NCBI GenBank assembly: GCA_017303655.1
Contig: JAFLCE010000035.1
Span: forward strand, 1 to 37,756
Source: Anaerolineae bacterium
GTDB taxonomy: Bacteria > Chloroflexota > Anaerolineae > Anaerolineales > Villigracilaceae
Length of the DNA: 37,756 nt
Reading direction: 5' to 3'
Shown: positions 1 through 12,408 of the stretch, one piece after another
Layout of the letters: each line of letters begins with the position of its first letter
Position numbering within the stretch: the first letter of the stretch is position 1
Translations under genes and position numbers: made by a program
Notes under the pieces: generated by a model
Database searches by the model: none
What the model was told of the DNA's origin: nothing
What the model saw: only the letters and a program-made list of their open reading frames with translations

Positions 1-333
1 TTATATGAAGAGACCATCACTCCGATCAAGGAAGGCATGATCGGACTTCGCATCGAAGGCGGCACGTTCGGACCCGAAGTCCGCAAGATGTCGTTGGTTA
101 CAAATCAATGGCAGGCATGGGCAACGGACGATTCTGAGATCGTGGGCAGTTATTCCCTCAGCGGCGGACGTGCCCTCAGCGGACAGTTCTACCACCGTGA
201 AGCGCATCTGCGCTGCTGGCGGCGCGAAGTAGTGACGCTCGACGGTTCGCGCAAAGCCGTCGTCCAGCATTGGTATCGCGGCGGACAGAGAGTCGGCTCG
301 CAGTTTGGTGTGATGGAGTTTGAAAGCGCGTGA
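1..333 (+). CDS. C-terminal part of a beta-rich protein, cut by window edge
   Basis: An open frame enters from the left edge and stops at 331-333; its start lies outside the window. The visible 110 residues alternate short hydrophobic and polar stretches, as in a beta-barrel, with no signal peptide or membrane segment. Its end resembles the end of the protein at 4802-5740: both have GRAL, then an aromatic-rich Q-x-FY or QHFY stretch, then R-R/G-E followed by a hydrophobic V(V)xxW/FY segment and FGV near the terminus. I infer that the two are paralogs. The stop overlaps the GTG start of the next gene by 4 bases, so they are probably translationally coupled. No known function; the context suggests a role in the tetrapyrrole-type cluster that follows. 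Confidence 0.7.
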   Translation, partial: LYEETITPIKEGMIGLRIEGGTFGPEVRKMSLVTNQWQAWATDDSEIVGSYSLSGGRALSGQFYHREAHLRCWRREVVTLDGSRKAVVQHWYRGGQRVGSQFGVMEFESA

Positions 334-1103
334 CAACTCCCTCCTTCCTCGGCGACTGGCTTGTGAGCGAATATGTCTACACTCCTGCGGGCGAATATGC
401 AGGTGTGATCCATCAACGCCGAAAACTCCAGCCGCAGGGAGAAGTGATCCGCGTGATCCAGATTTGCGAGCCGGTCAAAGTCGCGGATGGAATCTCGGAG
501 CAAGCGAAGTCAGTTGTTGCAATAATGAATAAGCGTGTGGGTGAATTTATTTTTGATCTGAAGGTCGTTGGCAAGGCTCGGCATTATCTCGGTGAGGATG
601 TGGTTGGCGGCGGGTTCTCGTGGCGTGATGGTGTTCTAACCGCGCGCGGCATGTGGACGCACTTTGGCTATAACTTCACTTCTTTTTCGATGCTGGTCAA
701 CCCGAATAGACAGGTCACCGGCGGAAAGTTTTTCAATGCCAATGAAGAAGTCGCCACCATCGTCGGTGTGGGTGTCCCTGAGAACGAAGGCTTTCCGATT
801 TTGGAGCCGACCCAGCCAAGCGGCGATTATCACGGTGAACGATATTTGATTTCACCTGATGGTGAGTTGATTGAAACCATTGCCATCACCGCAAACGATG
901 TGACCTTCAACGAAACCGAAGGCATGCGTGGACGTCAAAAGCAATACGGCGCTTTGCGCGAGATCGAAGCCGTGACTGCGCCTGGTGAAACGGTTTCATG
1001 GTTGGAAGTGAAAGACGAAACGACAGGCATGGTTGCGGGTCTGTGTAAATGGAACCGCGACGAAAAACTACATCATGTGCATGTGTATCTTTTGAGGAAA
1101 TAA
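330..1103 (+). CDS. Beta-rich, possibly lipocalin-like protein of unknown function
   Basis: This 257-residue protein starts at GTG 330, overlapping the previous stop in a GTGA junction, with GGAG at 315-318. It appears to hold two calycin-like halves. The first begins GDWLVSEYVYTPAG, a WxxxEyxYxPxG pattern like the first strand of lipocalin-type barrels; the second begins GDYHGERYLISPDG around residue 169. This internal similarity suggests tandem half-repeats. No transmembrane segment, lipobox or cysteine motif is visible. The middle (HYLGEDVVGG) weakly resembles HYFEGPDVFG in the protein at 4802-5740. The stop is directly followed by the ATG of the RCCR-like gene. I do not recognise a named family. 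A binding protein for a tetrapyrrole or a breakdown product would fit the neighbours but is speculation. Confidence 0.75.
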   Translation: MTTPSFLGDWLVSEYVYTPAGEYAGVIHQRRKLQPQGEVIRVIQICEPVKVADGISEQAKSVVAIMNKRVGEFIFDLKVVGKARHYLGEDVVGGGFSWRDGVLTARGMWTHFGYNFTSFSMLVNPNRQVTGGKFFNANEEVATIVGVGVPENEGFPILEPTQPSGDYHGERYLISPDGELIETIAITANDVTFNETEGMRGRQKQYGALREIEAVTAPGETVSWLEVKDETTGMVAGLCKWNRDEKLHHVHVYLLRK

Positions 1104-1919
1104 ATGTCTGCATCTACTGTGAAAACACTGTTCGAATTGCTCGATGAAAACCCCACCCAAGACCGCTCTCAATTTTTTGAGCAGTTGTGGGGCATCATGG
1201 GCGAACTTCGCACCAAGGTGGATGCTCACTTTAACCTCACTCCCGACCCATCGGTTGCAGATCTGCAACCGTATCAATCGGCAGATGGCAAGGCGAAAGG
1301 ATTGCTCAGCGCTTTTGCAGGGAAAGAGATCGACTGGATGGTTCATTCGTACATCGGGATACCGACCCAGTCGTTCACAAACATGCATCTGACCATCTGG
1401 CTTGGACCTCACATCCGTGCGCCTCATTTTGGGATGGCGATGGGTACCATGCCAGATATCTTTTTCTACATGGATTACATCCCGCGCGTGGATATTATGT
1501 CTGACCTTGAGTATCTCGACCGCTACTACGAGCCGGTCAACGAGAGTTATCTCAAACTGCGTAATGACTCGCGCTTCTCGCCGTTTGTAAGCAAGACCCT
1601 TTACATGCGCCAATCTGTCTCGCAGACGGGGCATGTTTACCTCACCAAGCCGACGCAGGAGATGGTAGATGTCTTGCATGACCTCTCGCATGAGATGCTT
1701 GACCGTTGGCTGAAGTGTGTGGACGATGCAGAACCTGTCCCTGCAGAAGAACGTGCTGCACTCGCTGCCCGTGACTTGCATATTCGCCGTGCAATCGCAG
1801 AACGTGACCCGGCGAATCCCATTGGCGCGAAGTTGTTTGGCGAACAAATGGCAGACCGTTTGGTGCGTGGTTTGTGGGGCGGGGATCGTCAACTCCCGCG
1901 TGCAGGAGAAAATGCGTGA
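1104..1919 (+). CDS. Red chlorophyll catabolite reductase-like protein (copy 1)
   Basis: This 271-residue protein resembles plant red chlorophyll catabolite reductase, a member of the ferredoxin-dependent bilin reductase superfamily. In plants RCCR reduces the open-chain product of pheophorbide a oxygenase. Similarity, judged from memory of the plant sequences, is spread over the C-terminal two thirds: an IPT segment near residue 90, a hydrophobic strand ending in a DYIPR-type turn where plants have DLPHR, then LEYLDRYYEP (plants have an x-DYLKEYY pattern), SPFVSKTLYMRQSVS (plants V-SPSLFVRSAFS), a long helix ending in WLKCV, and RDLHIRRAI followed by K-LFGE near the end (plants have RRK-I and MFGEE). 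GAGGA at 1094-1098 precedes ATG 1104. The stop overlaps the next start. Substrate and reductant are not shown by the sequence; a general bilin-reductase-fold role is the safe reading. Confidence 0.75.
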   Translation: MSASTVKTLFELLDENPTQDRSQFFEQLWGIMGELRTKVDAHFNLTPDPSVADLQPYQSADGKAKGLLSAFAGKEIDWMVHSYIGIPTQSFTNMHLTIWLGPHIRAPHFGMAMGTMPDIFFYMDYIPRVDIMSDLEYLDRYYEPVNESYLKLRNDSRFSPFVSKTLYMRQSVSQTGHVYLTKPTQEMVDVLHDLSHEMLDRWLKCVDDAEPVPAEERAALAARDLHIRRAIAERDPANPIGAKLFGEQMADRLVRGLWGGDRQLPRAGENA

Positions 1920-2863
1920 TTAGAGCCCTCTTCCACGCCACGACTCTTCCGAATGCAAGCGCGCCGTATAACGTGCTGCATTTGAAAGTTTATTATCCCG
2001 CCGCGCCGACCAATAGCGACGTGGAACGGATGAGCGGCGTAATCCCCGCAGATAAAACGTCCGTGCCGATGCCTGTGGTGATTTTCTTCAATGGAATCAA
2101 TGTGGGCATTGAAAGCTATCACTGGCTGGCGGTGAAACTGGCGGAAGCGAACATTGTCACGGTGATGTACACGCATGTGGCAGAGACGTTGCCCGGTGTG
2201 ATCGGACTGACGCCTGCGATTGATCTATCGAAAGTAAAACCTGAAACATACGGAAGTGGCGCAACCTGCCCAGCTATTCAACCGATCCTTGATTCGCTGA
2301 TGCAGTTGAATAATGATGAAAAGAGTCCTTTGTATCAAGCATTGGATTTGAATCACATCATCCTTGGCGGACATTCTGCGGGCGGAACGGTCGCTTTGCA
2401 GAATGCGCAATTCTTTGAGCAGGTGAAGGCGGTCTTTTCGTATGCGGGGCATACGATGGCATCCACCATGTTGGGGTTTGCACCAAACACTGTATTGAAT
2501 GTAGGCAGCAAGTCGGTAATGCTGATGCGCGGTGATAAGGATGGCGTGATCGCGGCAAGCCGCGTCCGCTATGGGACGGGTGAGCAGAGCCAAGACCCAG
2601 TGGAGAAAACGTTCGACGAAGCGTGCCAACCGTCGGCGGGGGAAGAGGCGTACGATGTCCTCTTGCAAGGCGCGAATCATTTTGCCATCACGCATCCGCT
2701 GGACGAGACGACCGGTCGCTTTTTTCTGGATATGGAAATGACAAGACCTGAAGATGAAATTCGGAATGAGATCGCAGGTCTTGTGAAGTCGTTTATAGAT
2801 AAGCACGTTCGTGGACAACTTTTAGAACTTCAGGCAAAGTACGCTGTCATTCGTAAAAAATAA
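1916..2863 (+). CDS. Alpha/beta hydrolase, chlorophyllase-like
   Basis: This is a 315-residue alpha/beta hydrolase. I place the start at GTG 1916, overlapping the upstream TGA by 4 bases, because AGGAG at 1904-1908 has ideal spacing; a longer reading from 1874 would overlap the RCCR-like gene by 46 bases. Visible features are an oxyanion-side strand (MPVVIFFNGIN), the nucleophile elbow GGHSAGG, an acid candidate in RGDKDG and the histidine in GANHFAI. Plant chlorophyllases, which remove phytol from chlorophyll, belong to this superfamily and carry a comparable GHSxGG elbow. No signal peptide is seen, so it is probably cytoplasmic. The chlorophyllase assignment rests on fold type plus neighbours; a dienelactone-hydrolase-like or other esterase is possible. 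Confidence 0.7.
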   Translation: MIRALFHATTLPNASAPYNVLHLKVYYPAAPTNSDVERMSGVIPADKTSVPMPVVIFFNGINVGIESYHWLAVKLAEANIVTVMYTHVAETLPGVIGLTPAIDLSKVKPETYGSGATCPAIQPILDSLMQLNNDEKSPLYQALDLNHIILGGHSAGGTVALQNAQFFEQVKAVFSYAGHTMASTMLGFAPNTVLNVGSKSVMLMRGDKDGVIAASRVRYGTGEQSQDPVEKTFDEACQPSAGEEAYDVLLQGANHFAITHPLDETTGRFFLDMEMTRPEDEIRNEIAGLVKSFIDKHVRGQLLELQAKYAVIRKK

Positions 2864-2876
2864 CAAGGAGAAAATC

Positions 2877-4010
2877 ATGTTAAAGAATTTTTGGTGGCCC
2901 CTCGAATTTTCGCACGTAGTGAAAGACAAGCCGATGCGCGTGACAGCGTTGGAGCAGGAGTTCGTTTTGTATCGCACGCCTGATGGCGCGGCACATGTGT
3001 TGAGTGATCTGTGCGTTCACCGCGGCGGTGCCTTGTCGGATGGTTGGATGAGCGGCGATTGTATTGTGTGCCCATACCACGGCTGGGAATATAAAGCCGA
3101 TGGCGCGTGTGTGAAGATTCCCGCGCAGCCTGATCTGGCTGTGCCGAAGAAGGCGCGTGTTGATTCGTATCCGACCGTTGAAAAGTATGGATACATTTGG
3201 GCGTTTCTCGGCGATCTGCCCGAAGCCGAGCGACCTGCATTGCCTGACCTGCCGCACTTCGATAACCCCGATTTCAAAGTGGTGCGCGGTACATTTGAGT
3301 GGCCCGTCTATTACGAGCGCGCATTGGAAAATAGTTTGGATGCCGCGCACGCTCCGTTCGTACATGGCGGTGCGTTCGGCAATCGTGATGAACCATCCAT
3401 TCCGGATTATGAAACCACATCGCATCACCTCGGCGCGGAGATGATCGTGACGCTCAAGCCGCAGAGAAAAAACATTCCCGGCTTATGGAAGCGTTTGTAT
3501 AAGCAGGAAGAAGAACCCAAGGGTGTTCGCACCCGCGCCGCATTTTGGATGCCATGCATGACCCTGCTCGAAGTATCCCTGCCGATGGGCTTGATGGTGT
3601 TATTCAACTTCCATGTGCCGGTCAACGAATACAAGACCATCACCAAGTGGACTCAGCTGCGCACCTTCTTCAAAGGCAATTGGGCAGATGGCGATGCACT
3701 CAAGCGTGTGTTGAAGATATTCAATCAAGATTATCCCATCGTGCTTTCGCAGCGCCCCGAACTTCTGCCATACGACATTGGTGCCGAACTTTCTGTGAAG
3801 TCCGACGGCATTCAGATCGCCTATCGCAAAATGCGCCAGCAATATATAGACAAGGGCTGGCAGATCGACATCCATCGTATTAAAAAAGAATATGGTCGCC
3901 AACATGCGGTGGTCATTCCTTCGCCCGCGCGCAAGGAAGTTCCCGAGCTCGCCAAGGCATGGGTCTTGAATGAAGTGCCGACGGTAGAAGTGAAGAAGTC
4001 TGGCGATTAA
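2877..4010 (+). CDS. Rieske non-heme iron oxygenase, pheophorbide a oxygenase-like
   Basis: This 377-residue protein is the alpha-type subunit of a Rieske oxygenase. The [2Fe-2S] site is Cys46-x-His48 and Cys65-x2-His68 (LCVHRGG and CPYHGWEY). The mononuclear iron site is Asn152-x2-Asp155-x2-His158-x4-His163. Plant pheophorbide a oxygenase, which opens the chlorin ring with O2, has the same order of sites and a comparable NxxDxxHxPFxH pattern. Unlike the plant enzyme it has no C-terminal CxxC motif and no C-terminal membrane helices, so it looks soluble. AGGAG at 2866-2870 gives a strong start. It lies between the hydrolase and the second RCCR-like gene. A separate ferredoxin/reductase is needed and is not in the window. 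Other Rieske substrates (demethylation, ring hydroxylation) cannot be excluded. Confidence 0.85.
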   Translation: MLKNFWWPLEFSHVVKDKPMRVTALEQEFVLYRTPDGAAHVLSDLCVHRGGALSDGWMSGDCIVCPYHGWEYKADGACVKIPAQPDLAVPKKARVDSYPTVEKYGYIWAFLGDLPEAERPALPDLPHFDNPDFKVVRGTFEWPVYYERALENSLDAAHAPFVHGGAFGNRDEPSIPDYETTSHHLGAEMIVTLKPQRKNIPGLWKRLYKQEEEPKGVRTRAAFWMPCMTLLEVSLPMGLMVLFNFHVPVNEYKTITKWTQLRTFFKGNWADGDALKRVLKIFNQDYPIVLSQRPELLPYDIGAELSVKSDGIQIAYRKMRQQYIDKGWQIDIHRIKKEYGRQHAVVIPSPARKEVPELAKAWVLNEVPTVEVKKSGD

Positions 4011-4011
4011 G

Positions 4012-4066
4012 TTTCTTTCCTCTTTCTTCTTTAATCATCACTAAAGAATGAGGAAAAAAGAAAGAT
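4012..4066 (+). repeat. Pyrimidine/purine hairpin repeat, copy A
   Basis: Just after the oxygenase stop lies TCTTTCCTCTTTCTTCTTT (within 4012-4032), followed at 4043-4066 by a purine-rich stretch (AAAGAATGAGGA then AAAAAAG) that is roughly its inverse complement. The two can form an imperfect hairpin. The same pyrimidine string recurs nearly unchanged in the gap at 15147-15166 and in shortened form at 6562-6579. It separates the first RCCR-like/oxygenase block from the second block, so it may act as an attenuator or processing site, or be a mobile micro-repeat. Confidence 0.6.
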
Positions 4067-4082
4067 TTGGATTGGAGAACTC

Positions 4083-4802
4083 ATGTCTTTACCACAACAA
4101 CTTTCGCTCGGTGCTTTAGAGAAGATAAAAACCCGCTTCGGACTCACCGAAGTCGGGTCGCCATATATGAGCCTTTCTTCCCCGATGAGCCCTGCTCCTG
4201 TTGGCTCAGTCCGCTTGTTCAGCGGTGACAAGGTGCATAAGGTGGTCTATATCGGCTTGGTCGTCCCGCCCATCGGGCTGGACTCACATATGATCTTCGC
4301 CTTCACCAAGCCTGAGAGTCACATCCCGCACTTCACACTGGACTCGGTGATGGCGGGTCCGTACTTTGCTTTTCACCTTGACCTGATTCCCCGTGCAGAT
4401 TTGGGCGCGAACCTCAAATATCTCAATGCTGTCTTCGATAGTTTAACTCCCATCTTTGAAGAAGCCAAGAAGATCGAAGGTCTCACCGCTGCGCAGTTGG
4501 GACCCAAGCAGTACGCACTCATGTCCCCGTGGATGCTGGCGTATCGCGCAAATGAATCCGCGTTCGAGCAGATTCAGACTCCTGTGAATGGCTACCTCGA
4601 CCATTGGTTTAACCTTGTCGAGAATGGCGTTCCTGCGGATGCTGTGCCTACTGGCGATTTCGCCGTCCGCGACCAACTTAATCGTAATGCCATCTTCGAC
4701 CCCGAAGTGGACAAGGTCTGGGCGCAGGTGGAACGTCTCGTTGGGGCGGAGACGGGTGCGAAGTTGCGCGAGATCTTGAAGAATCAGAATGTAGAGAAGT
4801 AA
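4083..4802 (+). CDS. RCCR / bilin-reductase-like protein (copy 2, divergent)
   Basis: This 239-residue protein looks like a diverged paralog of the protein at 1104-1919. Shared features are a strand ending in HLDLIPRADL (copy 1 has YMDYIPRVDI), the following NLKYLNAVFD helix (copy 1 LEYLDRYYEP), a C-terminal helix ending in HWFNLV (copy 1 RWLKCV), and a final VRDQLNRNAIFDP stretch (copy 1 RDLHIRRAIAERDP). The N-terminal third, present in copy 1, is shorter. Two RCCR-family genes flanking the oxygenase suggest two successive reductions, or a catalytic plus an accessory subunit. GGAG just upstream supports ATG 4083. The stop shares one base with the next start (TAATG). Family assignment is moderate; activity is inferred only. 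Confidence 0.6.
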   Translation: MSLPQQLSLGALEKIKTRFGLTEVGSPYMSLSSPMSPAPVGSVRLFSGDKVHKVVYIGLVVPPIGLDSHMIFAFTKPESHIPHFTLDSVMAGPYFAFHLDLIPRADLGANLKYLNAVFDSLTPIFEEAKKIEGLTAAQLGPKQYALMSPWMLAYRANESAFEQIQTPVNGYLDHWFNLVENGVPADAVPTGDFAVRDQLNRNAIFDPEVDKVWAQVERLVGAETGAKLREILKNQNVEK

Positions 4803-5740
4803 TGACCAATCAACCCTCCAACTGGCAGCAAAAAATCGAAGGTGAATGGCACGGACTACCGTCCATCTTTGATGTGCATGGAAATCATTCTGGCTATAAC
4901 AAGGTCTATCGTTCCTCTGTTTTCAAGGACGGGCAGACGACCTACATGATGAATACGAAAATTCAAGAAGGCTCGAATGAACTGCTTCCGCGCCTTGAAG
5001 TCTCCGATATCTTCTCCTTCGGCGTTGTGGACAGTGACCAGGATCGAATTTATCTCGGACCCGATTTCATTGGCGCGGGTCATCCTTATGGGACTCTTGT
5101 GGATGCCCACTACTACTCTCCCGGCTGGACGGGCGACCTGCGCACGATGGTTCACATCCTGCCTGATGGTGAGACGCAAGTATATTCGTCGCTGATTTTC
5201 GATGGACCTGCTTTATTTACAGTTTTCAATGGTATTTATAAAGTCGCTTTCGACTATCACACCAACCCCGAAACCAAAGCCCGCATTGACGCTCACTGTG
5301 AAGGTGAAAAAGTCAACGGACGCAAACCGCACATCCTGCCATCCAAGAAAAGCGGCGCATGGGATGGCGAGATGATCGTATACGGGGCTGACCAGCAACA
5401 GGTGGGCGTTAACAAAGTCCACATTGATTACAAACCACTGGACTTACTTCGTGCAGAAATGACTGTAGAAATTTCAGGTGCCTTCAACAAGAAGTACACC
5501 TTCAAACGCTATCGCAACCACAGCAAGCATTACTTTGAAGGTCCAGATGTATTTGGTAACTCAATGGGATATGGACGCGCGTTGTACACGTCACAGCATT
5601 TTTACGGCGAAGCGCTCAAAGTCAAGGGACGTGAGTTCATCATTGACGATAACTTCAACATGAGTGTGGTCTGGCAGTTTTACAAGTCTGACCGGATGCA
5701 GTACACGACCTTTGGCGTGCTGAATTGGACAGAAGCATGA
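4802..5740 (+). CDS. Beta-rich protein with two barrel-like repeats, unknown function
   Basis: This 312-residue protein is rich in aromatic and beta-forming residues, without signal peptide, membrane helix or cysteine motif. It seems to contain two similar halves: the first starts with EGEWHG and GYNKVYRSS near residues 13-40, the second with WDGEMIVYG and GVNKVHIDYK near residues 186-210. The C-terminal 55 residues resemble the end of the truncated protein at 1-333. I know no named family with confidence; tandem lipocalin/calycin-like barrels are the best structural guess. Its start overlaps the upstream RCCR-like stop and its stop overlaps the SDR start (ATGA), so its product is probably made together with these enzymes. 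A carrier for a hydrophobic or tetrapyrrole intermediate would fit. Confidence 0.75.
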   Translation: MTNQPSNWQQKIEGEWHGLPSIFDVHGNHSGYNKVYRSSVFKDGQTTYMMNTKIQEGSNELLPRLEVSDIFSFGVVDSDQDRIYLGPDFIGAGHPYGTLVDAHYYSPGWTGDLRTMVHILPDGETQVYSSLIFDGPALFTVFNGIYKVAFDYHTNPETKARIDAHCEGEKVNGRKPHILPSKKSGAWDGEMIVYGADQQQVGVNKVHIDYKPLDLLRAEMTVEISGAFNKKYTFKRYRNHSKHYFEGPDVFGNSMGYGRALYTSQHFYGEALKVKGREFIIDDNFNMSVVWQFYKSDRMQYTTFGVLNWTEA

Positions 5741-6534
5741 GCAAAGTCATTGTTATTACTGGTTCCACCAAAGGCATTGGCTATGGGCTAGCCGAAGAAT
5801 TTCTCAAGCTTGGGCAGAGAGTTGTGGTCAGCGGACGCAAACAAGATGCGCTCGATCAAGCGGTTGCGAAGTTATCTGTAGCATATACCGACAAAGTAGT
5901 GGGCTGTTTGTGTGATGTTTCCAAGCTGGAAGATCATGAGCGATTGTTTGCCTTCGCCAAGGAAAAATTCGGGCGAGTGGATTATTGGATCAACAACGCG
6001 GGTGTGGCTCATCAACAGCGCAATCTGTGGGAGTTGTCCAATGAGGTCGTGGAGACCGTCGTGAAGTCGAACGTCTTGGGTTCGTTATATGGAACGCGCA
6101 CGGCATATAACGGAATGATGGCACAAGGCGGCGGCTGGATCTATAACTTTGAAGGCTTTGGCTCAAATGGGAATGTCCGTGAGGGCATCACACTGTATGG
6201 CATGACCAAGGCTGCGATTGCATTCATGGGGAAATCGTTGGCAGTGGAGTTGAAAGACTCGCCTGTCAAAACTGGTTTGATACAGCCTGGTATGGTCATC
6301 ACTGACATGGTCACAGGTCAATATAGTGACCCGCAGGAATTTGCAAAGGTGAAACCCATATTCAATATCATCGCCAGTCGCTTGGAAGATGTTGTGCCAG
6401 TGCTTGCCGAAAAAATATTGACCAATGAAACGAATGGCGCGCGGATCGATTTCCTGCCGCGCTGGAAGTTAATGATGAGATTTTTTACAGCACCTTTTGT
6501 AAAGAGGAATGTGTTCGACGATAAACAGAAATGA
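5737..6534 (+). CDS. Short-chain dehydrogenase, chlorophyll b reductase (NYC1/NOL)-like
   Basis: This is a 265-residue classical SDR. It has the cofactor glycine motif TGSTKGIG, the NNAG motif, and the active-site tyrosine and lysine in YGMTK. Specific resemblance to plant NYC1/NOL, which reduce the 7-formyl group of chlorophyll b, is visible in the opening VITGSTKGIGY, the WINNAG segment, the NFEGFGSNG strand before the active site (plants have N-I/M-DGAGSxG, where most SDRs have NxSS), QPGMVITDM (plants SPGMVTTDL), and the C-terminal FLPRWKLMMRFF segment (plants have a similar FL...K stretch). I chose ATG 5737, which overlaps the previous stop by 4 bases. Reduction of a tetrapyrrole carbonyl is the inferred role; another carbonyl substrate remains possible. 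Confidence 0.8.
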   Translation: MSKVIVITGSTKGIGYGLAEEFLKLGQRVVVSGRKQDALDQAVAKLSVAYTDKVVGCLCDVSKLEDHERLFAFAKEKFGRVDYWINNAGVAHQQRNLWELSNEVVETVVKSNVLGSLYGTRTAYNGMMAQGGGWIYNFEGFGSNGNVREGITLYGMTKAAIAFMGKSLAVELKDSPVKTGLIQPGMVITDMVTGQYSDPQEFAKVKPIFNIIASRLEDVVPVLAEKILTNETNGARIDFLPRWKLMMRFFTAPFVKRNVFDDKQK

Positions 6535-6606: not shown

Positions 6607-7989
6607 ATGACCTTCGACCCTTCTGATTTCAAACGTGCCATGGGACAGTTCGCTTCGGGCGTGACCGTGGTCACGTCCAAGCATGGCGAGACTCCTATTG
6701 GTATTACGGCGAGTTCGTTCACCAGCCTGAGCCTCGACCCGCCGCTGGTGCTGGTTTCGCTCAATAAAAAATTGTTCACGCATAACGTCATCGCCGAGAG
6801 CGGATATTTTGCGGTGAATGTTTTGTCTGCGCGGCAGCTTGAGATCGGCATGCGCTTTGCGGGCATGAAGCCTGAGATCAAAGATCGCTTTGCCGGGTTG
6901 AAGACTCACACGGCGGTGACGGGCAGTCCGCTGCTGCCTGATTCGCTGGCGTGGGTCGATTGCACCGTTTGGGCGACATATGATGGCGGCGATCACACCA
7001 TCTTTGTGGGTGAGGTCAAGGACTTGTTTGTATCAGAGTTGGATATGCCGCTTCTTTATCACAACAGGCTCTGGCGTCGTAGCGAAGCGTTGGAAGTCCC
7101 CACTGTGCCGATGGAAGTTAATTTGGTCGAAGTCGGTTTGCGGGATGGCATCCAGCGTGAGGAGAAGTTCATCCCCACTGATATGAAAGTGGAATACGCC
7201 TCTCTCCTAGCTGACGCCGGACTCAAGAATATTCAGGTTTCCTCGTTTGTGAATCCGAAGATCGTCCCGCAGATGGCGGACGCTGCTGAAGTGTTTGCAC
7301 GTTTGCCCAAGCGCGATGACGTGACCTTTAGTGCCTTGGTGTTGAATTTGAAAGGTGTGGAGCGCGCGATAGCGGCGGGCGTGAAGCAGTTGGAAATGGG
7401 CGTGCCTGCCAGTGAAACGCTTGCTAGGAAAAATGCCAACACGACCGTTGAAGATGGCATTGTTGAAACTGCCGAGATGGTGAAGATGGCGCGTGAGCAT
7501 GGCGTGAAAGTTCGCGTGGGGGTGCAGGTGGCGTTCGGTTGCGCGTATGAAGGCAAGATCGAACAAGCAAAAGTTGTTTCGATGGCTCGTCGATTTTTGG
7601 CGATGGGCATTGATGAACTCTCGCTTGCGGATTCGGCTGGGCTTGGCAACCCGCAGTTGATCCGCCGCATTGTGCAAGAGGTTCTGCCACTGGCAGGGAA
7701 CGTGCCTGTAGTTCTGCACTTGCACGACACGCGCGGACAAGGCTTAGCGAATTTGTTGTCCGCGTTGAAATCGGGCGTGACGATGTTCGATACATCCTTC
7801 GGCGGTTTGGGTGGATGTCCATTCATTCAGACGGCGAAGGGCAACGTCGCTACCGAAGATACGGCAAATATGCTGCACGAAATGGGCATTCAAACCGGCG
7901 TTGATTTGAAAAAGGTCGCAGAGTTGTCGCGACGGATGGAAGAATTTTTGGGCAAGGAATTGCCTGCGAAGATGCATAAGTTGATTTAG
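6607..7989 (+). CDS. Flavin reductase domain fused to HMG-CoA lyase-type lyase
   Basis: This single 460-residue frame joins two enzymes. Residues 1-160 form a flavin reductase of the FMN-binding split-barrel type (ITASSFTSLSLDPPLVLVSL signature), which supplies reduced flavin to a partner monooxygenase. Residues about 169-460 form a full-length HMG-CoA-lyase-like TIM barrel: LRDGIQRE carries the Arg-Asp pair, VLHLHDTRGQ the metal histidines, and GLGGCPF followed by GNVATED the catalytic-cysteine signature. HMG-CoA lyases cleave 3-hydroxyacyl-CoAs to acetyl-CoA or similar plus a keto acid. An internal ATG at 7111 lies at the junction but has no good ribosome site at proper spacing, so a true fusion is more likely. 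The fusion suggests that flavin-dependent oxygenation and CoA-thioester cleavage belong to one pathway. Confidence 0.88.
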   Translation: MTFDPSDFKRAMGQFASGVTVVTSKHGETPIGITASSFTSLSLDPPLVLVSLNKKLFTHNVIAESGYFAVNVLSARQLEIGMRFAGMKPEIKDRFAGLKTHTAVTGSPLLPDSLAWVDCTVWATYDGGDHTIFVGEVKDLFVSELDMPLLYHNRLWRRSEALEVPTVPMEVNLVEVGLRDGIQREEKFIPTDMKVEYASLLADAGLKNIQVSSFVNPKIVPQMADAAEVFARLPKRDDVTFSALVLNLKGVERAIAAGVKQLEMGVPASETLARKNANTTVEDGIVETAEMVKMAREHGVKVRVGVQVAFGCAYEGKIEQAKVVSMARRFLAMGIDELSLADSAGLGNPQLIRRIVQEVLPLAGNVPVVLHLHDTRGQGLANLLSALKSGVTMFDTSFGGLGGCPFIQTAKGNVATEDTANMLHEMGIQTGVDLKKVAELSRRMEEFLGKELPAKMHKLI

Positions 7990-8018: not shown

Positions 8019-9245
8019 ATGGCTCAAACCATCTCTGAAAAGATCCTCTCCAAGCACGCAGGCAAGCCCGTGAAAGCGGGAGATATTGCCGTTGTCCACG
8101 TGGACGGTGTGATGGCGACCGATGCGACATCACCGTTTGCGATCAAATCCTTCCGCGCGATGGGTGGCAAGAAACTTTGGGACAGCGAGCGCGTGTCGTT
8201 GATTATTGACCACGCTTCGCCCGCACCAAATGAAACGGTTGCAAATTTACATAAGCTCATGCGCGATTTTTCGGCAGAGATGGGTTGCAGGCTGTATGAT
8301 ATCGGCGAAGGGATCTGTCACCAGTTGATGGTGGAAGATGCACACGTGCGACCCGGTGATCTTTTCCTCGGCGCGGACTCGCACACGCCCACCTATGGTG
8401 CGTTGAACGCCTTCGGGATCGGCGTCGGTTCGACGGATCTAGCTGCGACGATGGTAACAGGCAAGACCTGGCTGAAAGTCCCGAAGACTATCAAGATCAC
8501 ATTGAATGGTGAACTAAAAAAAGGCGTGACCTCTAAAGACTTGGTCCTCTTCCTTGTCAAAGAACTTGGCGTGGAAGGTGCGAATTATCAAGCCGTTGAA
8601 TTCACAGGTGAAACGGTCAAGTCTATGACGCTTGCCAGCCGTATGGCTATCGCCAATATGAGTTCCGAAATGGGCGCGAAGACAGGTTTGGTCGACCCGA
8701 CGGGACTCGACCTTTGGTATCCCTTCGAGCCGACCTTCGCAGACAGCGGCGCGGAATACGTTCGCGAGTTGACCTTCGATGTGTCCGCGCTTCGCCCGCA
8801 GATTGCCAAGCCGCACTCGCCTGAGAACGTCGTCGCCATTGACGAAGTGCTGGGCACAAAAATCCATTACGCCTTTATTGGTTCCTGCACCAATACCCGC
8901 CTCGAAGATCTGCATGCCGCGGCAGATGTCTTGAAGGGCAAGAAACTTTCCAGCGGCGTGCGCCTCATCATTGCACCCGCGTCCAAAAAAGTTTTCAACG
9001 ACGCACTCAAAGATGGCACGATCGGAATTCTCTCCGATGCTGGCGCGACCTTCATCACTTCGGGTTGTGGTCCCTGCGTGGGTTCACATCTCGGCGTGCC
9101 AGGCGATGGGGAAGTGGTCATCTCATCCACCAATCGCAATTTCCAAGGGCGCATGGGCAATCCCAGAGCACAGGTCTATCTCGGTTCGCCCGCTGTTGTG
9201 GCGGCGTCTGCGTTGGCGGGAGAAATCATGGAGCCGACCGAATGA
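8019..9245 (+). CDS. Aconitase-family hydratase, large subunit (LeuC-like)
   Basis: This 408-residue protein has the [4Fe-4S]-cluster cysteines of the aconitase/isopropylmalate isomerase family: one in GSCTNTR near residue 289 and two in SGCGPC near 349-352, with ADSHT near 125. Length and pairing with a separate small subunit match the LeuC/HacA branch. The family isomerises or hydrates di- and tricarboxylic acids. There are no leucine-pathway genes beside it; it sits with a CoA-transferase, an HMG-CoA-lyase-type lyase and a cyclic amide hydrolase. I therefore infer a catabolic hydratase, for example of an alkyl- or dialkylmaleate or citraconate, as with dimethylmaleate hydratase of nicotinate fermentation. 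Biosynthetic leuC cannot be excluded. It overlaps the small-subunit gene by 4 bases. Confidence 0.88.
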   Translation: MAQTISEKILSKHAGKPVKAGDIAVVHVDGVMATDATSPFAIKSFRAMGGKKLWDSERVSLIIDHASPAPNETVANLHKLMRDFSAEMGCRLYDIGEGICHQLMVEDAHVRPGDLFLGADSHTPTYGALNAFGIGVGSTDLAATMVTGKTWLKVPKTIKITLNGELKKGVTSKDLVLFLVKELGVEGANYQAVEFTGETVKSMTLASRMAIANMSSEMGAKTGLVDPTGLDLWYPFEPTFADSGAEYVRELTFDVSALRPQIAKPHSPENVVAIDEVLGTKIHYAFIGSCTNTRLEDLHAAADVLKGKKLSSGVRLIIAPASKKVFNDALKDGTIGILSDAGATFITSGCGPCVGSHLGVPGDGEVVISSTNRNFQGRMGNPRAQVYLGSPAVVAASALAGEIMEPTE

Positions 9246-9727
9246 CCACTGCTTACGTTTACCCCGTCGACAACATCGACACCGACCGCATCATCCCAGG
9301 TAAATACACCAAAACTCTGGATATGTCCGCGCTGGCTTCGCATGTACTCGAAGACCTCGACCCTGAATTTGCAAAGAAGGTTCAGCAGGGCGATATCCTC
9401 GTGGCTGGAAATAATTTCGGCTGTGGCTCATCACGCGAACAAGCCCCCATTGCCATCAAAGCCGCAGGCATTTCGGTTGTCGTTGCGAAAACTTTTGCAA
9501 GAATTTTTTATCGCAACGCCATCAACATCGGTTTGCCCGTTATCGAAGTGGAACATCACAACATTCAGTCAGGTGATTCGATCTCGGCTGACCTTGAGAA
9601 TGGCATCGTCACGAATCACACTCGCAACGAAACCTATCAAGCCACCAAGATGCCGCAGCAGATGATCGACATTCTCAATGCGGGCGGGTTGGTGAATTAT
9701 CTTATCCAACACGGCGACTACGTTTAG
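9242..9727 (+). CDS. Aconitase-family hydratase, small subunit (LeuD-like)
   Basis: This 161-residue swivel-domain subunit starts at ATG 9242 inside the LeuC-like stop (ATGA). It shows the start [12 protein letters not shown] and the substrate-loop motif [11 protein letters not shown] typical of LeuD proteins, with [14 protein letters not shown] after it. It pairs with the large subunit to make the active site; the swivel domain largely sets side-chain specificity. Its substrate is therefore best tested together with the lyase and CoA-transferase nearby. It ends three bases before the CoA-transferase ATG. Confidence 0.88.
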
Positions 9728-9730
9728 AAA

Positions 9731-10909
9731 ATGACCCTTCACACTCTCTCCTCCCTCCGCGTTCTCGAATTCAGCCATGCCGTGCTCGGTCCTGCCTGCG
9801 GGCTGGTCCTCGCCGATCTCGGTGCGGAGGTCATTCGCATTGAGCCGTTGGATGGTGACCCGACACGCAAACTCAAGGGCTTTGGCACGGGCTATTATCC
9901 GTTCTTCAATCGCAACAAAAAAAGTATTGCCATCGATATCAAATCCGATGCAGGGCGTGAAGTCATTTTCAAGTTATTGGAATCGACGGATGTTCTGATA
10001 GAAAACTTTGCGCCTGGGACGATGGATCGACTTGGCTTTGGATATGAAGCCCTCGCCTCAACCTACCCGACGCTTGTGTACTGCTCCCTGAAAGGATTCC
10101 TCCCCGGACCCTATTCCTCACGCCTCGCGCTCGATGAAGTGGTGCAGTTCATGAGCGGCATCGCCTACATGACGGGACCCATCGGTCAGCCGTTGCGTGC
10201 GGGCGCATCTGTCATTGACATCATGGGCGGGTCATATGGCGCAATAGCGATCCTCGCTGCTTTAAGAGAACGCGATGCCACAGGCAAAGGTCAACTCGTG
10301 AAGAGTGCCTTGTTCGAAACCGCCGCCTTCCTGATGGGACATCACATGGCATACGCGGCTGTGACCAAGGAACCTGTCCCGCCGATGCCTGCACGAGTCA
10401 GTGCTTGGGCAATTTATCGGACATTCAATACTTGCGAGAATGAACTGGTCTTTATCGGCGTCACCAGCGACAAGCAATGGGTGCGCTTTTGTGAGTCGTT
10501 CGAGATGCACGACCTGCTCGCGGATGATCGTCTCGCCACCAATAATGGTCGCATTGACCAGCGCGAATGGCTGATCCCTGACCTGATTTCCAGAATCGCG
10601 AAGTATTCGAAAGCTGATGTGTTGCAACGCTGTGAAAATGCCGACCTGCCGTTTTCGCCTATTGCCAAACCTGAAGATTTATTCACTGATGAACAGTTGA
10701 TTCAGGGACATAGTCTGCTGGAAACCATGTTGCCCAATGGCGACACGACGCAACTTCCACGCCTGCCGCTGTTGTTGGGCGGCGAAGGCTCGCAGTTAGA
10801 GATCAATCCACCTAAGATTGGCGAACATTCCAAAGAAATACTATCCGAGATTGGGATTGACCAAGCCACAATTGAAAAACTAATTCAAGATCATATCGTA
10901 GCAACCTAA
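9731..10909 (+). CDS. Class III CoA-transferase (CaiB/BaiF family)
   Basis: This 392-residue protein opens with the family pattern LRVLEFSHAVLGP...LADLGAEVIRIEP and carries the catalytic aspartate in LALDEVVQFMSG near residue 135. Such enzymes move CoA from a donor such as succinyl-CoA to a carboxylic acid acceptor; known members act on formate/oxalate, carnitine, malate and citramalate. Lying directly after the LeuCD-like hydratase and close to the HMG-CoA-lyase-type lyase, it probably activates the hydroxy-dicarboxylate made by the hydratase for cleavage. That order is inference. The length is normal for the family and the frame is intact. Confidence 0.87.
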   Translation: MTLHTLSSLRVLEFSHAVLGPACGLVLADLGAEVIRIEPLDGDPTRKLKGFGTGYYPFFNRNKKSIAIDIKSDAGREVIFKLLESTDVLIENFAPGTMDRLGFGYEALASTYPTLVYCSLKGFLPGPYSSRLALDEVVQFMSGIAYMTGPIGQPLRAGASVIDIMGGSYGAIAILAALRERDATGKGQLVKSALFETAAFLMGHHMAYAAVTKEPVPPMPARVSAWAIYRTFNTCENELVFIGVTSDKQWVRFCESFEMHDLLADDRLATNNGRIDQREWLIPDLISRIAKYSKADVLQRCENADLPFSPIAKPEDLFTDEQLIQGHSLLETMLPNGDTTQLPRLPLLLGGEGSQLEINPPKIGEHSKEILSEIGIDQATIEKLIQDHIVAT

Positions 10910-10935: not shown

Positions 10936-12408
10936 ATGTACGACTTACTCATCAAGAACACAAAACTCGTGCGACCCAATCAGACCTCGGTGGAAGTGGC
11001 AGATATCGCCATCAGTGGGGGGGAGGTTCAGAGGGTCGCACCAAGCATCCCTGTGGAAGAGGCGAAAGAAGTCCATGATGCGAAAGGACTTCTCGCATTC
11101 CCTGGTCTGGTGGATGGTCACATGCATGTCGGTATTTATTCGCCATTAGCCGAAGATGCGATCACGGAATCAAAAGCCGCTGCGATGGGTGGGGTGACAT
11201 CGGCGATCACATATTTTCGCACGGGCGAATATTATTTGAACAAGGGCGGCGCGTACAAGGATTTTTATCCTGAAGTGTTGGATATTTCAAAAGGCAAATA
11301 TTGGGTGGACTATGCCTATCACCTTGCGCCGATCAATCGCGCGCACATCGATGAGATGCCGATGTTGCTGAATGACTTCGGCGTGTCGTCGTTCAAGATA
11401 TTTATGTTTTACGGCGGGCATGGGTTGCATGGCAAGTCTGACCAGCAGCATAATTTTTTGAAACTTGAAGGCGACGAAAAATATGACTTTGCGCATTTCG
11501 AGTTCATCATGCGCAAGTTGAGTGAGATGATCGAAGCGAACCCGCAGCAGGCGCCGTATATCAGTTTGAGTCTGCATTGCGAAGTGGCGGACATTTTGAA
11601 CGCGTACACGTCGATGGTGCAGCGCGATGGCAAGTTGAAGGGACTGCATGCGTATAATGCGGCGCGTCCGCCGCACAGTGAGGGACTGGCGGTGTTCATC
11701 GCTTCATATCTCGCGCATGAGACGAGTTGTGCCAATATCAATCTGTTGCACCTCACATCACGCAAGGCGCTCGAAGCCGCGCTGATGATGCGTGATTTAT
11801 TTCCGCATATAAACTTTCGCCGTGAAGTAACGATTGGACATTTACTGCTCGATACCGACGAACCCAACGGCGTGCTGGCAAAGGTCAATCCGCCGATCCG
11901 TCCGCGCGCGGATGTGGAATTTTTGTGGGAGAAAGTGTTGAGCGGCGATGTCGATTGGGTGGTCAGCGACCATGCCTGCTGTTCGACCGAAATGAAATAC
12001 AACGCCGACCATCCCGATGATATTTGGATGGCGAAGTCAGGCTTTGGCGGCACGGAATACATGTTGAGCGGCTTGCACAGCGAAGGCTCCAAGCGTGGAC
12101 TATCCTTGAATCGCATGGCAGAACTCGTGTGTTGGAATCCCGCCCAGCGATATGGACTTCTCTCGAAAGGTGATATCGCCGAAGGCTACGACGCGGACAT
12201 CGTACTATTCGACCCGAATGAATCATTTGTTGTAAGAGCCGCCGAATCAGAATCAAATCAAGGCTACACACCATTTGAAGGACATGAACTCACAGGCAAG
12301 GTCAAGGCGACCTTCGTACGCGGGAACATGGTATATGAGAACGGAAAGATTTTGGGTGAAGCGATGGGACAGTATTTGCTAAGACCCATGGAAAAGCATA
12401 ACCACTAA
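10936..12408 (+). CDS. Dihydropyrimidinase/hydantoinase-type cyclic amide hydrolase
   Basis: This 490-residue amidohydrolase opens the ring of cyclic ureides or imides. Visible metal-site features are HMH in GLVDGHMHVG near residue 62, the lysine expected to be carbamylated in SSFKIFMFYGG, a histidine in SLHCE, LLHLTS and the aspartate of VSDHACC. All core residues of the family are present. AGGAG at 10925-10929 supports the start. No pyrimidine-degradation partners (dihydropyrimidine dehydrogenase, beta-ureidopropionase) lie nearby, so I infer a different ring substrate; alkyl-maleimides or related imides would suit the hydratase and lyase upstream. Its stop codon lies within a long palindrome (12400-12480). 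Confidence 0.88.
   Translation: MYDLLIKNTKLVRPNQTSVEVADIAISGGEVQRVAPSIPVEEAKEVHDAKGLLAFPGLVDGHMHVGIYSPLAEDAITESKAAAMGGVTSAITYFRTGEYYLNKGGAYKDFYPEVLDISKGKYWVDYAYHLAPINRAHIDEMPMLLNDFGVSSFKIFMFYGGHGLHGKSDQQHNFLKLEGDEKYDFAHFEFIMRKLSEMIEANPQQAPYISLSLHCEVADILNAYTSMVQRDGKLKGLHAYNAARPPHSEGLAVFIASYLAHETSCANINLLHLTSRKALEAALMMRDLFPHINFRREVTIGHLLLDTDEPNGVLAKVNPPIRPRADVEFLWEKVLSGDVDWVVSDHACCSTEMKYNADHPDDIWMAKSGFGGTEYMLSGLHSEGSKRGLSLNRMAELVCWNPAQRYGLLSKGDIAEGYDADIVLFDPNESFVVRAAESESNQGYTPFEGHELTGKVKATFVRGNMVYENGKILGEAMGQYLLRPMEKHNH

Follow-up and report, generated by a model that had tools for sequence, protein, structure and literature searches.

Plant chlorophyll breakdown ends at phyllobilins, and anaerobic nicotinate breakdown includes a branch of 2,3-dimethylmaleate hydratase and dimethylmalate lyase. 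Ferredoxin-dependent bilin reductases belong to the same fold superfamily as the proteins described here, and their pre-PcyA clusters occur in heterotrophic bacteria including Chloroflexi, with heme oxygenase, V4R proteins, an Fe-S protein and globins as further members (Rockwell 2023, PMC10151467). Chlorophyll is made and destroyed at a scale of 10^12 kg per year (PMC7318184), and the available portions of the open-licence papers hold no report of a bacterial cluster such as the one presented here, nor of a gene set for bacterial chlorophyll mineralisation. Judged from its sequence, this cluster, which is common to several unrelated bacterial groups, may be a route for eating chlorophyll or related pigments.

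The window, the whole 37,756-nucleotide stretch of DNA that was analysed, makes up a single contig in a MAG of Anaerolineae type that is 93.55% complete. Bases 1-6534 contain eight ORFs, all on one strand, and the tight overlaps claimed for them in a first-pass annotation are borne out by the mapped junctions. The g1 and g2 genes overlap through GTGA at 330-333, g2 and g3 abut at 1103/1104, and a second GTGA overlap at 1916-1919 places the GTG start of g4 (1916) inside the g3 stop; g4 and g5 are spaced by 13 nt and g5 and g6 by 72 nt, while g6 and g7 have base 4802 in common and g7 and g8 overlap through ATGA at 5737-5740. The operon continues to 16.7 kb and has a second block on another contig, C101. 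The first-pass annotation missed the lipocalin-like families, the further RCCR locus on C101 and everything encoded at 6.6-16.7 kb; the cluster that it observed is real and larger than stated, and its plant labels hold only partly.

The RCCR-like identity proposed for g3 (1104..1919, +), a member of the RCC-reductase family and predicted linear-tetrapyrrole reductase, is upheld by a PF06405 match of 79.2 bits against a cut-off of 24.9, which the copy on C101 also exceeds (52.6 bits). Searched against the PDB, the g3 family profile retrieves Arabidopsis RCCR at E 1.2e-21 and then bilin reductases only (E<=0.01). A second RCCR-like protein had been claimed in g6 (4083..4802, +), and here profile and fold agree but Pfam does not, as the single-sequence PF06405 match (E 0.047, 13.3 bits) falls under the curated cut-off. 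The best PDB match of the g6 family profile is RCCR (E 0.0066), with phytochromobilin synthase at E 0.0097, and hhalign scores the g6 family against the g3 family at 99.1%. Foldseek with the predicted structure returns Arabidopsis RCCR for all of the top eight matches (E 1.7e-12, TM 0.77), followed by HY2, PebA and PcyA; by predicted fold, g6 is a member of the RCCR/bilin-reductase superfamily. The acidic positions 154 and 291 of Arabidopsis RCCR (numbered from the F218V entry), which we take to be the catalytic residues, align by sequence alone with an invariant Ala (Ala112) and invariant Asp235 in g3, and in g6 with Asp87 at 154 and Glu208 plus invariant Asp210 near 291. A tree with one plant RCCR row, which a branch of length 3.25 sets far apart from the bacterial g3 proteins and which drew long-branch warnings, is uninformative on the placement of plant RCCR. 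PHROG gave no match for g2, g3, g6 or g7, and in three loci a fusion of rubredoxin and rubredoxin reductase lies directly 3' of the RCCR gene.

The presence of bilin reductases among the g3 relatives in the PDB profile search would also suit a pathway of the same kind for bilins (biliverdin, bilirubin, urobilin, phycobilins) rather than chlorophyll, in which the Rieske enzyme would hydroxylate or cleave an already open chain. In the same direction point the NCBIfam matches of the g3 relatives (E<=0.001), which are restricted to three phycobilin/biliverdin ferredoxin oxidoreductase models, none of them matched by more than 5 of the 33 members, and the missing PaO domain of g5. However, g3 scores higher in Pfam with RCCR (79 bits) than with the bilin reductases (27 bits), and heme oxygenase is present in 7 of 24 RCCR-bearing genomes, so that in most of them a bilin would need an outside source; a bilin substrate is unlikely in our estimation. 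No heme oxygenase was found in the 93.55% complete MAG studied here, for which a route through its own heme oxygenase was rejected.

For g5 (2877..4010, +), a Rieske non-heme iron oxygenase of the VanA/SxtT/NdmA type (Rieske 76.8 bits, VanA_C 93.2 bits), the claimed resemblance to pheophorbide a oxygenase extends to the Rieske cluster motif and the D-x2-H-x4-H iron site, both present, but not to the PaO C-terminal domain (PF08417), which is absent from g5 and the 17 relatives scanned (E<=0.01). Rieske is matched in 17/18 members of this family and VanA_C in 18/18, and g5 as pheophorbide a oxygenase was rejected on these counts. The best PDB matches of g5 are SxtDIOX (E 1.6e-53) and NdmA (E 2.7e-49), and PaO matches occur in 3 of 24 RCCR-bearing genomes, one over cut-off. 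The GHSAGG-bearing alpha/beta hydrolase g4 (1916..2863, +) belongs at best to the chlorophyllase/PETase superfamily, and "chlorophyllase-like" survives only at that level; its best Pfam matches are below cut-off and PF07224 is not matched. Within its family (n=22 including g4), 8 members touch PF07224 and 16 touch PF12740 (E<=0.01), g4 itself only the latter, and the 42 PDB matches of g4 at E<=1e-5 include PET hydrolases and cutinases and no chlorophyllase. The short-chain dehydrogenase g8 (5737..6534, +) falls in the SDR superfamily (PF00106 130 bits), but a NYC1/NOL identity is not confirmed beyond it: Pfam and NCBIfam give generic SDR models only, the best NCBIfam one below cut-off.

The first-pass annotation had further suggested that homologs of plant SGR in Anaerolineae would fit. 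SGR (PF12638) is indeed found in 11 of 298 Anaerolineae-class genomes (10 over cut-off), but in 0 of 24 RCCR-bearing genomes, where there was no positive-control match either. None of the 11 overlaps the RCCR-positive genomes, and as the overlap expected by chance is 0.37, this by itself says little; an SGR-linked entry of chlorophyll was rejected on the missing overlap. With no PaO-type oxygenase, no SDR shown to be NYC1/NOL and no SGR found in RCCR-bearing genomes, the cluster does not duplicate the PAO pathway of plants.

Loci carrying g3 relatives were compared across five phyla. The set of 83 comprises the best 80 of 135 confirmed loci plus L014, L019 and L022, with L019/L031 and L022/L084 probably the same records (81 distinct loci); it is phylogenetically clumped, with 30 Actinomycetes and 20 Acidimicrobiia-type loci (grouped from record titles), and many loci are short. 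By tblastn, 71 have the Rieske gene, 71 g7, 65 g6, 62 the hydrolase and 55 the SDR, all five being absent from 31 control regions. Alignments drew on extended hits (g3 83, g7 72, g5 71, g6 65, g4 61), the window and some G-handle loci, left out a g3 in the g6 list and two g1 in the g7 list, and after thinning at 70% identity held 33 (g3), 28 (g6), 22 (g4), 21 (g7) and 18 (g5) rows. Several neighbouring ORF groups around the loci look antisense. Two outcomes had been named as speaking against a chlorophyll cluster: best matches outside the chlorophyll families, and no conserved co-occurrence in related genomes. Taken together they are half borne out, given the non-PaO oxygenase, the unconfirmed SDR and the lack of SGR; the RCCR neighbourhood does recur, and the co-location of RCCR-superfamily proteins with Rieske, hydrolase and SDR genes lends the earlier interpretation partial support.

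Ten of the 298 Anaerolineae-class genomes carry PF06405; g6 is found in nine of these and a g7 match in all ten, in one of them as a 25-residue stretch only. Hypergeometric co-occurrence with RCCR is 1e-14 for g6 and 2e-16 for g7, over class genomes that are not independent. PF06405 is unmatched in two genomes that do have g6 and g7 (G194 and G208), and g6 is missing from one that has RCCR and g7 (G248). In G234 both blocks lie on adjoining stretches (L131, L016) of one contig, in the order g16 down to g1, lip3, HpcH, CoA-transferase, maleate-isomerase-like, FAD monooxygenase, RCCR and C-N hydrolase, and in G213 a single stretch runs from a PF17645 protein through g16.

The recurrent g7 (4802..5740, +) is a two-barrel lipocalin-like protein of the DUF3598/BFA1 fold, its AF2 model (pLDDT 93.6) matching BFA1 (5yvf, E 4.4e-9) and DUF3598 (2o62, E 4.1e-8) in Foldseek at a TM of about 0.6. 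Homologous to it (23%, E 5e-8) is g1 (1..333, +), the 3' part of a lipocalin-like protein that has no Pfam match and is 97% identical over 110 aa to a longer ORF of 362 aa on C101 (L003:979-2067, -). The conserved g2 (330..1103, +), of unknown family and with no Pfam match over cut-off, is present in 22/83 related loci and 0/31 controls.

Downstream, g9 (6607..7989, +) fuses a flavin reductase (PF01613 162 bits) to an HMG-CoA-lyase-type C-C lyase (PF00682 147 bits; NF004283 326 bits, cut-off 246), and its counterparts in five relatives are ORFs of 460-467 aa. The LeuC/DmdA-type large subunit g10 (8019..9245, +; NF001614 542 bits, cut-off 385) and LeuD/DmdB-type small subunit g11 (9242..9727, +; TIGR02087 202 bits, cut-off 109) of a hydratase lie side by side, the g11 start overlapping the preceding gene via ATGA, and both exceed the cut-offs of NCBIfam models that also cover other substrates. 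They are followed by a class III CoA-transferase, g12 (9731..10909, +; PF02515 343 bits), with succinate-glutarate CoA-transferase as best NCBIfam match below cut-off, and by g13 (10936..12408, +), a hydantoinase/allantoinase-type cyclic amidohydrolase and predicted cyclic imidase (TIGR03178 235 bits, below the cut-off of 358; allantoinase in the PDB at E 5e-50). The set is completed by an MFS transporter, g14 (12501..13685, +; PF07690 197 bits), an acyl-CoA dehydrogenase-like flavoprotein, g15 (13825..15099, +), whose PDB matches mix acyl-CoA dehydrogenases and DszC-type monooxygenases, and an aldehyde dehydrogenase, g16 (15204..16682, +; PF00171 394 bits). The extended operon is predicted to include enzymes that act on methyl-branched C4 acids, on amides and on cyclic imides, and with this imide, amide, maleate and malate set, which the first-pass annotation did not use, the tetrapyrrole idea goes beyond mere resemblance.

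Imidase and amidase steps are also described for nicotinate breakdown (PMC9304392), and together with the SxtT-type enzymes and methylxanthine demethylases that are the nearest solved Rieske relatives, and the altered position 154 of g3, they would accommodate catabolism of a smaller N-heterocycle or alkaloid (nicotinate-, riboflavin- or pyrrole-alkaloid-like), the RCCR fold having been recruited for another reaction. We find this doubtful: the solved relatives of g3 (E<=0.01) are all tetrapyrrole enzymes, as are nearly all fold matches of g6 (E<=0.001), RCCR-type genes occur together, two to three at a time, and the annotated genes (some neighbours being unannotated) include no molybdenum hydroxylase, catechol dioxygenase or TPP decarboxylase like those of the riboflavin cluster (PMC12746152). 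Riboflavin catabolism itself was rejected.

Late catabolic genes also recur, with a C-N hydrolase in 53 of the 83 loci, a lyase in 46, an Amdase/maleate-isomerase-like gene in 34 and a CoA-transferase in 18, against 0, 1, 0 and 1 of the 31 control regions. Their types differ: hydratases are DmdA-type in 4 loci (two of these matches, L034 and L056, only 29% identical) and PrpD-type in 16, lyases are HMGL in 13, CitE-like in 31 and PrpB-like in 15, and imidase candidates are a hydantoinase in 10 and a polysaccharide-deacetylase family protein in 3. Core loci from 8 class genomes have the HMGL lyase in 8, DmdA in 7, the CoA-transferase in 7 and the hydantoinase in 6. Among the types searched, neither an imidase nor a hydratase turned up in any of the 30 Actinomycetes loci; the 20 Acidimicrobiia-type loci showed no gene of the maleate-isomerase-like kind, and 18/83 loci showed no lower-pathway gene, several loci being short. 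For what seem to be equivalent late steps, different lineages use unrelated enzymes. The many actinomycete hosts, and the frequency of SDR, Rieske, FAD monooxygenase and hydrolase genes in biosynthetic clusters generally, bring to mind natural-product biosynthesis or modification with late genes that recycle a by-product, which we hold to be highly improbable. The RCCR/Rieske core is the same in Chloroflexota, Acidimicrobiia, Halieaceae and a Myxococcota MAG; the lyases, CoA-transferases and acyl-CoA-dehydrogenase-like proteins are typical of catabolism and are accompanied by GntR/IclR regulators; and no assembly-line enzyme is among the annotated neighbours.

We regard it as an evenly balanced proposition that the operon and the C101 block form an aerobic catabolic pathway in which a tetrapyrrole is dismantled and its pieces enter central metabolism. 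A tetrapyrrole as starting compound is somewhat favoured; a chlorophyll-derived one (pheophorbide or phyllobilin) is the likeliest kind, with a bilin next, yet falls short of probable. In such a pathway g4 would remove an ester, g5 would attack the macrocycle or a bridge, and g3, g6 and the C101 copy, reductases by family or fold, would draw on one-electron donors to reduce the opened chain. Oxidation would be carried on by the FAD monooxygenase, by the aldehyde dehydrogenases and by the flavin reductase together with its partner, giving mono-pyrrolic pieces and then methyl-substituted maleimides. From these, the C-N hydrolase and a cyclic imidase, either g13 or in other loci a deacetylase-family protein, could release ammonia and a substituted maleate, which the maleate-isomerase-like enzyme, DmdAB- or PrpD-type hydratase, CoA-transferases and HMGL/CitE/PrpB-type lyase could convert to pyruvate-like and acyl units. 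Maleimides and hematinic acid are reported chlorophyll breakdown products (PMC7318184), though in a study whose own leaf samples contained hematinic acid but not maleimides, and maleimides serve as molecular indicators of ancient photosynthesis (reference cited in PMC8669743). We tentatively propose that heterotrophs of several phyla possess a complete, undescribed pathway mineralising chlorophyll-derived tetrapyrroles. In it a Rieske enzyme outside the PaO type would open or cut the pigment, several RCCR-type reductases would work on the opened chain, and every pyrrole ring would leave as a methyl-substituted maleimide to be hydrolysed, hydrated and split into pyruvate and an acyl unit. If so, RCCR-type chemistry would serve catabolism in heterotrophs, a route for maleimides could be named, and the specific, widespread cluster would be a marker for pigment recycling, testable in cultured hosts.

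Set against the known systems, the cluster shares with the lumichrome/riboflavin operon amide hydrolases, a Rieske enzyme and an aldolase ending in pyruvate, but the genes annotated here include no P450, xanthine-oxidase-type enzyme, TPP decarboxylase or catechol dioxygenase, in which they differ from that operon (PMC12746152). Compared with pre-PcyA clusters, no heme oxygenase or Fe-S protein is among the annotated neighbours, and g3 matches PF06405. The dimethylmaleate branch of nicotinate breakdown resembles it in a DmdAB-type hydratase, a lyase of the PEP-mutase/ICL superfamily and an imidase/amidase logic, but here the hydratase is DmdAB or PrpD, the lyases are of HMGL, CitE and PrpB types, and the genes are linked to RCCR and Rieske genes. 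With the plant PAO/phyllobilin pathway, of whose RCCR step the cluster would, if our reading is true, be the bacterial counterpart and possible evolutionary source, it shares the pairing of a Rieske oxygenase with an RCCR-family protein, along with an esterase-type hydrolase and an SDR. It differs in that no SGR was found, its oxygenase is of another Rieske subfamily, and it has two to three RCCR-type genes and further ring-breakdown enzymes.

The complete contig C102, whose 37,756 bases make up the window, comes from a 4.6 Mb MAG in 172 contigs (completeness 93.55%, contamination 5.82%), and no tRNA was found in the window. Bases 1-6534 hold eight plus-strand ORFs (g1-g8) whose neighbors overlap by 4 nt or 1 nt or lie no more than 72 nt apart, which bears out the overlap-joined genes described in the first-pass annotation, and this tight packing makes joint expression of g1-g8 likely. 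The operon extends downstream of g8 as far as 16,682, through g9 (6607-7989, + strand), a flavin-reductase/HMGL (HMG-CoA-lyase-type) fusion, g10 and g11, a LeuC/LeuD-DmdAB-type hydratase, g12, a class III CoA-transferase, g13, a hydantoinase-type amidohydrolase, and then an MFS transporter, an acyl-CoA-dehydrogenase-like protein and an aldehyde dehydrogenase (ALDH). Fusion-length ORFs of the g9 type also occur in the fetched loci L015, L125, L126, L127 and L131; elsewhere there are two separate genes.

The cluster holds two proteins resembling RCC reductase (RCCR), as had been proposed; g3 is recognized by its PF06405 score and g6 by profile and Foldseek searches. With 79.2 bits, g3 (1104-1919) lies far above the curated cut-off for RCC reductase (24.9), and its 26.7 bits against the bilin-reductase family lie under the cut-off of 31. 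Searched against the PDB, a 33-row profile of the g3 family has no matches at E<=0.01 other than RCCR and bilin reductases. The relationship of g6 (4083-4802) is barely detectable in a single-sequence search (E 0.047), but the top two matches of its family profile are RCCR (E 0.0066) and phytochromobilin synthase (E 0.0097), and the g6 and g3 families align with a probability of 99.1%. For its predicted model (pLDDT 96.4), Foldseek ranks 1-8 all go to Arabidopsis RCCR (E 1.7e-12, TM 0.77); bilin reductases come next, and Ycf2-FtsHi complex subunits and coproporphyrinogen oxidases rank below them. Positions 154 and 291 of Arabidopsis RCCR, which have catalytic roles, align to invariant Ala112 and Asp235 in g3, and invariant Asp87 of g6 aligns at position 154. 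In three loci a rubredoxin fused to a rubredoxin-reductase-type flavoprotein lies directly downstream of RCCR (L034:10838-12232, L035:10822-12477, L057:10896-12533); such a fusion would suit a bilin-reductase-type enzyme as its one-electron donor.

The substrate is predicted, on a balance tipping slightly in favor, to be a tetrapyrrole. Its derivation from chlorophyll is a more tentative prediction, somewhat short of an even chance: the affinity of g3 to RCCR rather than to bilin reductase and the oxygenase gene beside g3 argue for it, while the residue changes relative to Arabidopsis RCCR (Ala112 at position 154), the absence of PaO from the cluster and the failure to find SGR argue against it. 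The oxygenase g5 does have the Rieske cluster and iron ligands on which its likeness to pheophorbide a oxygenase had been based, but in a scan of 18 family members VanA_C was present in every one and a PaO domain in none, and the solved enzymes nearest to g5 are SxtDIOX/SxtT and NdmA. Similarly, g4 belongs to the alpha/beta hydrolase superfamily of chlorophyllase and PETase, as its chlorophyllase-like label implied, but no family score exceeds the cut-off and its best PDB matches are PET hydrolases; g8 matches generic SDR models, and its likeness to NYC1/NOL is seen at the superfamily level. Two Rieske genes flank g4 in L128, L130 and L132, from Anaerolineae-class genomes, which suggests two oxygenation steps. 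SGR in Anaerolineae is indeed in print (the available text of PMC8531759) and was found in 11 of 298 class genomes, but it is not tied to the cluster, with none in the 24 genomes bearing an RCCR-family gene, a scan in which the control was also silent, and none in the 10 RCCR-positive class genomes (overlap expected by chance, 0.37). A heme-derived route to the substrate would run via heme oxygenase, which is present in 7 of the 24 RCCR-bearing genomes and was not found in the source MAG, and this argues against it.

Of the 298 class genomes, 10 (source MAG counted) have PF06405, 11 have g6 and 13 have g7, with two short or weak matches for g7. Nine of the ten RCCR genomes carry g6 and all ten a g7 match, that in genome G270 of 25 residues only, giving hypergeometric co-occurrence values, with genome kinship ignored, of 1e-14 for g6 and 2e-16 for g7; G194 and G208 have both without a PF06405 match. 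A one-genome-per-species scan yielded 135 g3 relatives, the nearest named ones from Anaerolineales/Anaerolineae MAGs. The best 80 of the 135 were kept, and their hosts are Chloroflexota, Acidimicrobiia, Nocardia, Actinoplanes, Streptomyces, Halieaceae and other Gammaproteobacteria, with a few Myxococcota/Deltaproteobacteria and one Oligoflexaceae MAG. Comparison of 83 loci (tblastn, E<=1e-20, half coverage) confirmed that the core recurs, with g5 in 71, g6 in 65, g7 in 71, g4 in 62, g8 in 55, a C-N hydrolase in 53, a g16-type ALDH in 40 and g15 (acyl-CoA-dehydrogenase-like) and a PF17645 protein in 34 each. None of these appeared in the controls, 31 regions of 20 kb taken from the same genome set, where CitE-like lyase, flavin reductase and CoA-transferase had one match each. 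The g2 family (window 330-1103) and a DUF3891 protein (L003:1907-2755) each accompany part of the clusters (22/83). A TonB-dependent receptor, a possible substrate importer, adjoins the cluster in a gammaproteobacterial MAG (L101:3-2399).

A second contig of the source MAG, C101, encodes another RCCR (PF06405, 52.6 bits) together with a C-N hydrolase, FAD monooxygenase, HpcH aldolase, GntR regulator, DUF3891 protein, a PF17645 maleate-isomerase/arylmalonate-decarboxylase-like protein (best PDB match a putative maleate isomerase, E 3.9e-9) and a CoA-transferase closest to succinyl-CoA:mesaconate CoA-transferase (313 bits, below the cut-off of 700). Upstream of the window's operon, C101 (reverse strand) terminates in g1, g2 and the beginning of g4, passing from g2 directly to g4 without g3 (window 1-2121 versus L003, on C101, 1-2067), and the stretches common to both contigs start and finish in long exact matches. 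The junction is apparently an assembly bubble between strains, which may differ in carrying g3. The single-contig genome G213, of the same genus, has in one stretch PF17645 protein, CoA-transferase, HpcH, GntR, DUF3891, g1, g2 and g4-g16, with g3 absent; at a second site, away from this core, is an RCCR with 87% identity to the C101 copy beside FAD monooxygenase (94%), ALDH (94%) and C-N hydrolase (92%). In G234 the two blocks are neighbors on a single contig (L131 followed by L016), in the order g16, g15, g13, g12, g11, g10, g9, g7, g6, g5, g4, g2, g1 and then lip3, HpcH, CoA-transferase, maleate-isomerase-like protein, FAD monooxygenase, RCCR and C-N hydrolase; g8 was not seen in this cluster. 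Another Anaerolineae MAG (L029) has a similar run including g3, and Actinomycetes loci typically read C-N hydrolase, g3, g4, g5, g6, g7, g8, PF17645 protein.

At three late steps, unrelated families take the same place in different lineages: the hydratase is DmdA-type in 4/83 loci (two at merely 29% identity) or PrpD-type in 16/83; the C-C lyase is HMGL (13/83), CitE-like (31/83; its top NCBIfam match, RipC of itaconate breakdown, does not reach the cut-off) or PEP-mutase/PrpB-like (15/83); and the candidate cyclic imidase is of hydantoinase type (10/83) or of the polysaccharide-deacetylase family (3/83). The available text of PMC9304392 describes a structural relationship between a fungal cyclic imidase and the latter family. 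Core loci from eight class genomes have HMGL in 8/8, DmdA and CoA-transferase in 7/8 and hydantoinase in 6/8. No imidase or hydratase of the searched types occurs in any of the 30 Actinomycetes loci, and 18 of the 83 loci have no lower-pathway gene. The common theme of these enzyme kinds is imide, amide, maleate/fumarate, malate and cleavage, on methyl-branched C4 acids. The tetrapyrrole would be cut at its bridges to methyl-substituted maleimides, which would pass through imide, amide, maleate/fumarate and malate steps to C-C cleavage, an order we infer from families, folds and neighborhoods. According to the available text of PMC7318184, senescent leaves and lake sediments have both been reported to contain maleimides and hematinic acid, and chlorophyll has been reported to yield hematinic acid in vitro; maleimides were not detected in that study's own leaf samples.

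The predicted g7 model (pLDDT 93.6) contains a pair of beta-barrels and in this resembles BFA1 and DUF3598, and g1 is a distant paralogue of g7; these lipocalin-like proteins may, speculatively, bind or shield hydrophobic pigment. No published account of this cluster was found in the open-licence literature. In the available text, Thomas 2009 (PMC2716323) describes RCCR-like genes in Nostoc and Anabaena, and Rockwell 2023 (PMC10151467) describes bilin reductases in heterotrophs and Ca. Schekmanbacteria sequences falling with the RCCR outgroup. The bilin-reductase clusters described there differ in gene content from the present cluster.
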